NCBI GenBank assembly: GCA_023136265.1
Contig: JAGLRN010000015.1
Coordinates: 1-44,469 of the forward strand
Direction of reading: 5' to 3'
Source: Thermoplasmata archaeon
GTDB lineage: Archaea; Thermoplasmatota; Thermoplasmata; RBG-16-68-12; JAGMCJ01
DNA length: 44,469 nucleotides
Below, one piece after another: positions 17 to 3,449 of this stretch (the stretch's first letter is position 1; each line of letters opens with the position of its first letter). The position numbers and the translations under genes were made by a program. Below the pieces are notes generated by a model that did not search any database, was not told the DNA's origin, and saw only the letters and a list, made by a program, of their open reading frames with translations.

Positions 17-24
17 TTTATATA
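17..24 (+). promoter_or_regulatory. TATA box of the RHH-ftsZ operon
   Basis: TTTATATA, preceded by a purine-rich stretch, lies 79 bases upstream of the RHH gene start. An archaeal start site 25-27 bases downstream would fall near 43-48, inside the palindromes at 38-57. Assignment rests on sequence and spacing only. Confidence 0.7.
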
Positions 25-37
25 GCATACGCTATTA

Positions 38-57
38 CCGACATTTGTCGGACAAAT
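38..57. promoter_or_regulatory. Palindromic operator candidate at the RHH-ftsZ start site
   Basis: Two overlapping inverted repeats are visible: CCGACATTTGTCGG (38-51, perfect) and ATTTGTC-G-GACAAAT (43-57, perfect arms). The octamer GTCGGACA at 47-54 recurs inverted as TGTCCGAC at 68-75. They sit on the predicted transcription start of a gene encoding a ribbon-helix-helix protein. Such proteins commonly bind short palindromes, so autoregulation is the natural inference. Confidence 0.6.
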
Positions 58-95
58 ACGAAAGTGGTGTCCGACGCGGACTACAGGGAACCAAC

Positions 96-413
96 ATGGC
101 GTCGGAATCAGAAAGAGTGACTGTCAGGGTGCCAAGCGTACAGGTGAGTGCTCTCCATGCGCTAGTGGAGAGCGGACAATTTGCGACAATATCCGACGCC
201 GTCAGAGCCGCAATCAACAACTTCATCGACGAGAAGTTCGCCCCCGACTACATCCGCAAGATGACGATCGAGCTTCCGAAGGGAAACGTCGTGAACCTAG
301 AGGAGCTCGTGAAGAGCGGCGATTCGGTCTCCGTCGAGGATGCCGTCAGGAACGCCGTGCGTGAATACATTCGGAGACGCTTGTCGGAAGTAGTGGAAAG
401 AAAAAGGGCCTAG
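96..413 (+). CDS. Tandem ribbon-helix-helix regulator upstream of ftsZ (CdrS-like)
   Basis: This 105-residue protein has two ribbon-helix-helix (MetJ/Arc/CopG) units in one chain. The first, residues about 6-45, has strand RVTVRVPS then two helices including the DAVRAAI turn. The second, about 54-95, has strand KMTIELPK then the matching DAVRNAV helix. One polypeptide could thus act like an RHH dimer. Haloarchaeal CdrS is a short RHH factor encoded next to ftsZ2 that controls cell division genes; position and fold suggest the same role here. ATG 96 is used because an upstream in-frame start at 45 would lie at the predicted transcription start and code through the operator repeats. The gene is followed 81 bases later by ftsZ on the same strand. 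Confidence 0.8.
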   Translation: MASESERVTVRVPSVQVSALHALVESGQFATISDAVRAAINNFIDEKFAPDYIRKMTIELPKGNVVNLEELVKSGDSVSVEDAVRNAVREYIRRRLSEVVERKRA

Positions 414-494
414 CCTAGAAGGGAACGACACAACGGGATGCACATCGGAGGAATGCGCAAGCATTCCCTCCACACTCTAACGAACGGTGAGATA

Positions 495-1550
495 ATGGGC
501 ATGGATCATCTAGTCAAGGAAGCAAGGAGCTTCGACGTGAGCGTAGAATTCGGAAAGCCAAGGATACTGGTCGTCGGCTGCGGCGGTGCAGGGAACAACA
601 GCGTGGACAGACTCATGCGGATAGGCGTCCACGGTGCCAAGACCGTCGCGATCAACACGGACAAGATGCACATAGACCGCATCGAAGCCGAGAAGAAAGC
701 CCTCATCGGAAGGTCCATTACCCGAGGGATGGGAGCCGGCGGTTGCCCCGAGGTCGGGGAGCGCTGCGCTCTGCTCGCCGAGGACGACATCAGGAGGCTC
801 ATAAGCGGGGCGGACATGACGTTCATCACCGTGGGAATGGGCGGTGGCACGGGCACCGGGGTCGCACCGGTCGTCGCAAGGCTCGCCGAGAGCATGGGCT
901 CCGTCGTCGTTGCCATCGCGACCACTCCCTTCGACGCGGAGAAGAGAAGGTGCAGGGCCGCGAGGGAGGGCCTCGAGAAGCTCCGCCGTCACTGCGACAG
1001 CGTCATAGTTCTCGACAACAACAGACTCGTCAAGATGGTCCCCAACCTCCCGATAGAGCAGGCATTCTGCGTGATGGATCAGCTGATATCGGAGGTCATC
1101 AGGGGAATAACTGAGACGATTACTCTGCCCTCACTCATAAACCTGGACTTCGCTGACGTCAAGACGATGATGTCTACGGGTCAAACCGCGACCATCCTAT
1201 ACGGAGAGGAATGCGCGGACGATCCGGAGCAGGTCATCGTGGAGACGCTCAACAACCCTCTCCTCGACATCGACTACTCCGATGCGAGCGGTGCCCTGAT
1301 TCACCTCACATCGGGACCGGACCTCTCGATCGGGACCGCGTACTCGGTCGTGGACGGGATATCCTCCCAGCTCAGCCCGGATGCGAACGTGATCTTCGGG
1401 GCGAGATTGGACTCAGACTTCACGGGCGTGATCAGAGTATTGGCCATAATTACGGGCGTGCACTCGCCAAACCTCCTCAGTCCCTCAGCGGGACAGGTGA
1501 TCTATGACGATGAACCCCTCCTCGCTCACGGAGTCTCAATAGTCAGATAA
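495..1550 (+). CDS. ftsZ: Cell division GTPase FtsZ
   Basis: Tubulin-like GTPase that polymerises into the division ring at mid-cell. Visible motifs: N-terminal nucleotide-binding VVGCGGAGNN, the tubulin signature GGGTGTG in the middle of the GTPase domain, the N-D-N-N-R-L stretch, and a synergy (T7) loop NLDFADVK carrying the catalytic Asp. From ATG 495 it is 351 residues, normal for archaeal FtsZ; the C-terminal tail after the globular domain is short. ATG 495 follows GGTGAG at 486-491; ATG 501 is also possible, and an in-frame start at 438 adds residues that do not look like FtsZ. It is probably co-transcribed with the RHH gene. Which archaeal class (FtsZ1 or FtsZ2) it belongs to needs a tree; the RHH neighbour favours an FtsZ2-type context. 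Confidence 0.95.
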   Translation: MGMDHLVKEARSFDVSVEFGKPRILVVGCGGAGNNSVDRLMRIGVHGAKTVAINTDKMHIDRIEAEKKALIGRSITRGMGAGGCPEVGERCALLAEDDIRRLISGADMTFITVGMGGGTGTGVAPVVARLAESMGSVVVAIATTPFDAEKRRCRAAREGLEKLRRHCDSVIVLDNNRLVKMVPNLPIEQAFCVMDQLISEVIRGITETITLPSLINLDFADVKTMMSTGQTATILYGEECADDPEQVIVETLNNPLLDIDYSDASGALIHLTSGPDLSIGTAYSVVDGISSQLSPDANVIFGARLDSDFTGVIRVLAIITGVHSPNLLSPSAGQVIYDDEPLLAHGVSIVR

Positions 1551-1617: not shown

Positions 1618-3449
1618 CAGAACCTAGGCCTCTTGCTGACCTCGCCGGGGAGGTACATCTGGCGGAAGGGTTTTCCCTCCATCTTCTCCTCGATCTCGCT
1701 GAGCAGGCCATCGAGGGTCATCTCCCTGCTCTCGTCCCGCTCGCGGTCGTACACGACGAGCCGGTCCCCCTTCATCTCCCTCTCACCGATTACTATCACG
1801 TAGGAAACCCAGTCCGTCTTCGCGTCCCTGACCCGCTTCGAGACAGACCCACCAGTATCGTCGACCCCCACTCTGACGGATCCCTTCCTGAGCTCCTCAG
1901 CAAGGTCTGAAGCCCTTTGAACATAATCGTCCGACACGGGCACAAATCTCACCTGCTCAGGGTTCAACCACAACGGAAGATATCCTACGCTTCCATCCTC
2001 CTCCATCTTCACCGCCGTGTCCAGGACCATGTAGATGTACCTCTCGATGGTCCCCAACATGGCGGAGTGCAGTATGATCGGAAAGCGCTTCTTCCCGTCC
2101 TTGTCAGCGAAGCTCATGCCGAACCTCTCCGCATTGCCCACGTCAATCTGAACCGTGCCTATCTCCCTCTCCCGCTTGATCGCGTCCATGATCACGTACT
2201 CGATGTTCACGGTCCAGTAGTAGTTCTTTCCGCTGAGGTAGAAGTGAATGAGCCCCTCTTTCTCCTCTCTCTTCAGGACCTCCAGGATGAGCTCCTTCTC
2301 CTTTTCGTAGGCCTCTCTCGATGAGACATTTATGAGGATCTCATAATCCCTTCCGAGGTCCTTCGCCTCCTTCGTGATCCTGTCGTGCAGGTTCAGAAGC
2401 CATTCCCTTGCCTCCTCGTCGTCCCTGCAAAAGACGTGAAGGTCCGGCATGTTCATCCTTCTGACCCTGAATGCGAGCATAGTCTCGCCGGACTGCTCGA
2501 GGCGGTAGGAGTCCGCAACCTCGAACGCCCCGAAAGGCAGTTGCTTGTAGCTGAAGTTCCAGTCCTTGATCATGGCGAACTGCTGGTGGCAGGCGGCATA
2601 TCTCATCACGAATGATCGCCTCTTGGTCTCGATCATGTAGAGCCTGTCGCCGAAGAGCTCCGCGTGTTCCGAGATCGCGGGCTCCGAAAGATCGAACATG
2701 TTCGTTCCCTTGACCTGCATGACTGGCAGACCCAGTGAATTGACCACCGCGGTCGCGTAGTCAGCGCACAGGTCGAATATGATGGCGCCCTTCGGGTTGT
2801 ACCTCATGTGGCCAACGTCGCTCATGGGCTCCCATTCTATCCCGAACTTCTTGCACAGGCGCAGGTAAGCGGGCTTCTCGGCAGCCATGTGCTCCTCCTT
2901 GAGCGCCTCCTTTCTCATCAATACCTGGAATGCTTCGGATCCTTCTGCGTACTCCTCTGGTGCAAACTCGCTCCCTTCTGGAGTGAGGACGAGGAAATCC
3001 TCTTCGACCTTCTCCTCCTCCTTCTTGCTCGCCTTTATATCCCGGAACGACTCCGCCAGGGGATGCCCCTTGCAGGAGAGTACGAAGGCCTTGTACCAGC
3101 CAAAGGGGGGCGTCGTCACTTCGAAGCCCCGGTCCCGCAGACTGGCGGTCATAAGCTCCAGGGCCTTCTTCGCATTGCTCGGCCCCGTGAGTGAGGAGCT
3201 GAGATGAGCGTACGGGTAGAGCATCACGTTGCGGACGGACAGCTTCTCGGCAGTGGCCATTATCTCCTCTACCGCCGCCGCGGAGGCTTCCTCGATCTGC
3301 CCCTCATCACCTTTCTCGACGGTCAGGAAGGCCACGAGCGCCTCCTTCACCTCTCCCTTTTCCTCTCCGGGGGAGATCTCGTCGGCGAACCGTGTCTTCT
3401 CCTTCACCTCGTATCTCATGAAGTCGGAGTGGATGAGCAGAACTTTCAT
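1617..3449 (-). CDS. thrS: Threonyl-tRNA synthetase, archaeal type
   Basis: Charges tRNA-Thr in the cytoplasm. The 610-residue chain has an archaeal-type N-terminal editing domain (about 1-145, related to D-aminoacyl-tRNA deacylase) followed by the class II catalytic core: the DLCADYA region near 226-232, the zinc-ligand Cys in RYAACHQQ near 287, motif 2 near SYRLEQSGE at 314, a second zinc ligand His in the DLHVFCRD segment near 338, and motif 3 HSAMLGTIERY with the third His. A C-terminal anticodon-binding domain follows. The bacterial TGS and HxxxH editing domains are absent, as expected. A TATA-like box 23-31 bases upstream of ATG 3449 implies a leaderless mRNA, which fixes the start. Confidence 0.95.
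   Translation of the reverse strand: MKVLLIHSDFMRYEVKEKTRFADEISPGEEKGEVKEALVAFLTVEKGDEGQIEEASAAAVEEIMATAEKLSVRNVMLYPYAHLSSSLTGPSNAKKALELMTASLRDRGFEVTTPPFGWYKAFVLSCKGHPLAESFRDIKASKKEEEKVEEDFLVLTPEGSEFAPEEYAEGSEAFQVLMRKEALKEEHMAAEKPAYLRLCKKFGIEWEPMSDVGHMRYNPKGAIIFDLCADYATAVVNSLGLPVMQVKGTNMFDLSEPAISEHAELFGDRLYMIETKRRSFVMRYAACHQQFAMIKDWNFSYKQLPFGAFEVADSYRLEQSGETMLAFRVRRMNMPDLHVFCRDDEEAREWLLNLHDRITKEAKDLGRDYEILINVSSREAYEKEKELILEVLKREEKEGLIHFYLSGKNYYWTVNIEYVIMDAIKREREIGTVQIDVGNAERFGMSFADKDGKKRFPIILHSAMLGTIERYIYMVLDTAVKMEEDGSVGYLPLWLNPEQVRFVPVSDDYVQRASDLAEELRKGSVRVGVDDTGGSVSKRVRDAKTDWVSYVIVIGEREMKGDRLVVYDRERDESREMTLDGLLSEIEEKMEGKPFRQMYLPGEVSKRPRF

Follow-up and report, generated by a model that had tools for sequence, protein, structure and literature searches.

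A tandem ribbon-helix-helix protein related to CdrS and its predicted operator upstream of an FtsZ2-type gene in Thermoplasmata

The rhh-ftsZ locus and its products

The stretch of DNA analyzed here (the window; 44,469 nt from a Thermoplasmata archaeon, genome G000 in our sample) starts at the contig end (G000:C28:1), and its first 1,550 positions harbor a gene for a protein with two ribbon-helix-helix (RHH) units and, on the same strand and 81 nt past the rhh stop codon, an ftsZ gene. The features of this locus are as follows.

17-24, + strand: TATA box TTTATATA, read from the letters; the sole promoter element seen for the operon
40-43, + strand: right half (GACA) of a third box, 11 nt upstream of box 1
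46-54, no strand assigned: predicted operator box 1, TGTCGGACA, with AA after it, beginning about 29 nt past the TATA start
68-76, no strand assigned: predicted operator box 2, TGTCCGACG, exactly 22 nt from box 1
96-413, + strand: tandem-RHH CdrS-like regulator, 105 aa (P0001), from the ORF and profile matches
111-236, + strand: RHH1, residues 6-47, with the invariant reading strand R7-T9-R11
255-380, + strand: RHH2, residues 54-95, with the degenerate reading strand K55-T57-E59
414-494, + strand: ftsZ leader, 81 nt, with a conserved GGGATG at 435-440 and a GNRA-loop hairpin at 450-467
495-1550, + strand: ftsZ of putative FtsZ2 type, falling outside the FtsZ1 clade; product of 351 aa (P0002)

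By eye, no TATA-like element is visible in the 81-nt gap between the two genes; in the aligned promoters of the class, a T/A-rich block and a TTWAWA motif precede box 1 by about 28-30 nt. A sequence-only reading of this DNA had placed a tandem RHH gene 81 nt before ftsZ on the same strand, behind a single TATA box, and was correct on both points, judging from the two ORFs, the two stretches of RHH_1 similarity and the lone TATA box at 17-24. An alternative ftsZ start at position 438 was ruled out, given that the sister genome has a 1-nt indel that disrupts the reading frame at this point and that homology begins at 495. Within the leader, the GGGATG element is found in one to three copies at 46 of 51 loci from eleven families (3% in controls), in part as the ftsZ start codon itself, and it also lies downstream of the boxes at four smc genes and at one gene of the FtsZ1 clade (L333). 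The hairpin, GGAATGC-GCAA-GCATTCC with a GNRA loop, has counterparts with different stems in similar positions at three other loci (L011, L012 and L021).

The RHH protein P0001 matches the Pfam domain RHH_1 (PF01402) in two stretches (33.8 bits against a gathering threshold of 20.5, 3e-8) and, likewise in two separate stretches, NF058555, the NCBIfam model for CdrS of haloarchaea (59.8 bits, E 1.9e-16); the latter score is below the curated cut-off of 100 for the CdrS equivalog, which no genome in our sample of the phylum reaches. The residues of RHH proteins that correspond to R7, T9 and R11 of P0001 are those of the strand that faces the DNA. In RHH1, all three are retained in 20 of 20 rows of a diverse alignment, forming an invariant RxTxR signature; their equivalents in RHH2 are mostly K/R, T/M/V/N/S and E/D/A/Q, respectively, with KxTxE in the window protein. 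Despite the loss of the reading strand, RHH2 is the more conserved of the two units (mean column identity 0.81 vs 0.71 in alignment A3 and 0.71 vs 0.60 in A1), which would fit a role in assembly or in protein contacts. AlphaFold applied to the single sequence yielded a low-confidence model (pLDDT 74) with strands at residues 8-11 and 56-60, and the model obtained from a 46-row alignment (pLDDT 65) contained no strands at all; a Foldseek search returned no significant match.

The product of the downstream gene, P0002, is an intact FtsZ that scores 361 bits with TIGR00065 (cut-off 295) and contains both the GGGTGTG tubulin signature and the NLDFADV T7 loop. Most genomes of the class encode four to nine FtsZ-family proteins, and G000 has six such genes, including a divergent one on contig C110, two on C33 that adjoin a gene for a KOW-domain NusG/Spt5-like protein, and one on C30 beside proteasome-alpha-like genes. 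In the FtsZ tree, which includes several long branches and is unsure in its deep part, the C33 pair and the C30 gene belong to the FtsZ1 clade, and P0002 lies outside the clade of Methanocaldococcus jannaschii FtsZ1 and the nusG-linked paralogs (96/86), grouping with the RHH-linked FtsZs. By synteny and by this tree, which holds no certified FtsZ2 reference, P0002 is tentatively classified as FtsZ2-type.

Distribution of the tandem form and its relation to CdrS

A search of the class Thermoplasmata with P0001 produced some match in 137 of 150 genomes, most of them full length, and ftsZ is located directly downstream of the full-length tandem ORF, on the same strand, in almost every such genome of the class, so that the pairing of rhh with ftsZ is not a chance arrangement. 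A scan of named genomes with the tandem alignment listed the best 80 of 129 relatives, and the titles inspected among these denote Thermoplasmata-type MAGs, including Methanomassiliicoccus and Proteinoplasmatales SG8-5; the viral contigs searched contained no relative of the tandem protein. In the phylum outside Thermoplasmata, the orthologous ftsZ of other classes is preceded by an ORF for a protein of 75-91 aa with a single RHH and a helical tail. The tandem form is fixed across the class Thermoplasmata and appears to be new, as do the degenerate strand of RHH2, the box described below and its further copies, and our search of the open-access literature found no paper on this form or on an operator for it in this phylum. 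RHH1 is closer than RHH2 to the single RHHs of the other classes in 19 of 20 sequences, from which we infer that the tandem form probably arose at the level of the class from an older, single-RHH state. In family f22 (L102-L106, L116), the rhh gene persists upstream of pheT with no FtsZ nearby, and three genomes of this family (G026, G036 and G054) contain no FtsZ match at all.

The pairing of a CdrS-type RHH gene with ftsZ2 outside haloarchaea is not new, since the pairing is published across archaea and a 2023 study states that ftsZ2 contexts usually include an RHH_1 gene (PMC9871819). The present locus resembles that of haloarchaeal CdrS (Halobacterium salinarum VNG0194H, Haloferax HVO_0582; NF058555) in that the RHH gene directly precedes ftsZ2 and the protein is similar to the CdrS model in both halves, but CdrS is a single RHH of about 55 aa, as opposed to the 105-aa tandem. 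The view that the operon is related to CdrS and belongs to an old and widespread device, already expressed in the sequence-only reading, is borne out: the pair is conserved in related genomes, both throughout the class and, in a version with one RHH, elsewhere in the phylum. Another archaeal RHH factor, aCcr1 of Sulfolobales, likewise controls a division gene, cdvA (reviewed in PMC7617429), but this is an ESCRT-type gene in an unrelated context.

A predicted operator at rhh-ftsZ promoters and at other genes

Alignment of the upstream regions uncovered a repeated palindromic box, TGTCNGACA. Allowing for one mismatch at most, this box is present within 150 nt upstream of 96 of 111 distinct rhh genes (64 exact), compared with 3.0% of random windows (0.29% for exact matches), and it was found in the 110 nt upstream of 7.7% of 261 control genes. 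The box is represented in 23 of 25 families, is mostly lost in family f11 (3 of 9), and occurs in 31 of the 32 single-RHH/ftsZ promoters, 27 times in the exact form. In family f22, it is mostly kept together with rhh, although there rhh precedes pheT without a neighboring ftsZ; hence the box goes with rhh rather than with ftsZ. The single-RHH/ftsZ pairs of the other classes (for example, L162, L169 and L176) have the same box in the same place and an FtsZ of the same non-FtsZ1 group, and differ from the pair described here in the architecture of the regulator and in the distance between paired boxes.

Exact core pairs lie 22 nt apart in 61 of 107 tandem promoters, with virtually none in shuffled sequences; among the 32 single-RHH promoters, pairs were detected at distances of 11 nt (three), 10 nt (two) and 12 nt (one), and none at 22 nt. 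Exact double boxes with the 11-nt distance are rare in the phylum (4 of 118 genomes), which leaves a small number of promoters as the basis for the 10-12 nt spacing. Spacing and architecture appear to have changed together on one branch; because this amounts to one evolutionary transition, coincidence is possible, and the link between the two changes is suggestive, not proven. In 41 non-redundant promoters chosen for the 22-nt pair, conservation extends to columns outside the selection, namely, the T/A-rich block at about -28, the AA after box 1, and the half box 11 nt upstream (columns -6 to -3). In most promoters, the distance from the start of the TATA-like motif to the first box is 26-31 nt, which places the boxes at the expected transcription start site. 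In Haloferax, by contrast, most CdrS sites are found 41-110 nt before starts, and none is listed at the promoter of CdrS itself, whereas here the boxes are at the regulator's own promoter, with the predicted operator over the expected start of its own operon. In the open-access literature searched, we encountered no CdrS recognition site from outside haloarchaea. Judged by comparative sequence analysis, the unit that consists of the regulator, the predicted operator and ftsZ is real and conserved, and represents a variant of the CdrS/ftsZ2 arrangement outside the curated CdrS equivalog.

The window's genome contains additional genes of this kind. A second, diverged tandem-RHH gene (L186, G000:C39:67500-73000; 2841-3353, - strand) is followed by a short FtsZ-like gene (1885-2745, - strand) that seemingly lacks the C-terminal domain, and similar pairs are present in family f11, in one case (L329) with a double box upstream. 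A single-RHH CdrS-like gene on contig C83 (L161, 5685-5951, - strand) is unlinked to ftsZ and has the box at its own promoter; genes similar to it occur in family f24 (L172 and L135).

The double-box pattern GTCNGAC-N15-GTCNGAC is found in one to three copies per matching genome (68 of 120 genomes), and the reversed control pattern once each in a handful of genomes. Second copies are located directly upstream of another ftsZ gene in eight genomes (G022, G041, G087, G032, G065, G104, G017 and G061); six of these eight ftsZ genes group with M. jannaschii FtsZ1 in the FtsZ1 clade, and the two from family f19 fall outside it. In four genomes (G050, G080, G094 and G073), the second copy precedes smc, and in G115, it precedes a second RHH gene that is followed by a short FtsZ. 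The boxes at the FtsZ1-clade genes precede the TATA-like motif, and those at smc and the f19 ftsZ genes follow it closely. The window's own genome has the double box once, at its own operon, so that it is only in relatives that targets in trans are predicted. For Haloferax, a CdrS binding site 50 nt before the ftsZ1 start has been published, along with a drop in ftsZ1, sepF and smc when cdrS-ftsZ2 is repressed (PMC8406309); the predicted targets in Thermoplasmata, ftsZ1-clade genes and smc, match these published haloarchaeal genes bound by or affected through CdrS. The predicted operator, with its two boxes that the sequence-only reading did not contain, and the predicted ftsZ1 and smc targets are the main gain over that reading.

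Two other occurrences of the boxes are worth recording. In the window's genome, two boxes 11 nt apart (L278, 1453-1472, contig C45) precede a gene for a TPR protein by about 190 nt and might mark an extra target. In both sampled genomes of family f20 (L300 and L301), a double box overlies a TATA-like stretch before the gene for a short secreted or membrane protein.

How the boxes may be read

We consider it likely that the tandem protein is a CdrS-like autoregulator of ftsZ2 in which an RHH1 homodimer reads the box and RHH2 is a spacer or an assembly domain. Given the synteny, domain architecture, box, spacing and target positions, all of which are directly apparent in the sequences, the mechanism could be envisaged as follows. 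The RHH1 units of two chains would form a dimer that reads the major groove of one TGTCNGACA box; with both boxes occupied, the two dimers would sit two helical turns apart on one face of the DNA. The RHH2 units, presumably no longer DNA-reading, would either pair among themselves or bridge the two dimers, which would account for a spacing of 22 nt rather than 10-12 nt. Since the expected start site is under the boxes, the predicted effect of binding is repression of the rhh-ftsZ2 operon, a negative autoregulation that would set the level of FtsZ2. In some families, the same factor may have further targets, namely, an FtsZ1-clade gene, with the double box ahead of the TATA-like motif in an activator-like place, and smc, with the double box at the start site. 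Repressors of the MetJ/Arc/CopG type are RHH dimers that read short palindromes repeated in tandem across a promoter, as proposed here; the differences are the two RHH units per chain, one of them without reading residues, and the 22-nt box spacing.

The sequence-only reading had instead proposed a pseudo-dimer, that is, a single molecule that would bind DNA through pairing of its own RHH1 and RHH2 strands. The presence of two RHH units joined by a short linker and the strands in the low-confidence single-sequence model agree with this proposal, but we regard it as unlikely: the box is a symmetric palindrome common to single-RHH proteins, which must dimerise, the position of R11 is taken in RHH2 by E/D/A/Q, the alignment-based model has no strands, and Foldseek gave no significant match. 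Because the box is palindromic, is shared with single-RHH proteins, and the reading residues of RHH2 are lost, a pair of RHH1 units from two chains is the simpler reader.

Alternatively, the box could belong to another factor, such as the single-RHH paralog encoded on contig C83, that controls rhh-ftsZ2 from outside, the tandem protein having some other task; there is a precedent in haloarchaea, where CdrL binds cdrS-ftsZ2. The C83 protein outscores the tandem protein on the CdrS model when the best single match is considered (48.1 vs 41.0 bits) and has a box, CGTCGGACA, at its own promoter, so that it could share or own the site. This alternative seems improbable, however, since the box stays with rhh in family f22, where ftsZ is absent, since the single-RHH lineages have the box before the ftsZ-linked rhh itself, and since it is to those single RHHs that tandem RHH1 is the closer unit. 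That the adjacency of the RHH gene and ftsZ has no regulatory meaning, or that the protein is a toxin-antitoxin-like RHH located there by chance, can hardly be entertained, even though RHH antitoxins are common and the sequence matches in the PDB include ParD and CopG-type antitoxins, in view of the class- and phylum-wide synteny, the conservation of the operator, the ftsZ and smc targets, and the lack of an adjoining toxin gene.

Extending the reading by RHH1 homodimers to the origin of the system, we offer a tentative scenario that we deem possible without considering it the probable one. A CdrS-like RHH regulator might have become tandem in the thermoplasmatal ancestor, RHH2 giving up DNA reading to turn into an assembly module, and the operator might have followed, its box spacing growing from one helical turn to two. 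The same box would place an ftsZ1-clade gene, joined in some families by smc, in one regulon for division and segregation.

The timing of division in archaea is largely an open problem, and a predicted operator that extends across a phylum is directly testable in vitro. The operator would indicate which of the up to nine ftsZ copies, and which smc, are co-regulated. Conceivably, these promoters also provide a natural case of a regulator whose architecture changed together with its predicted operator.
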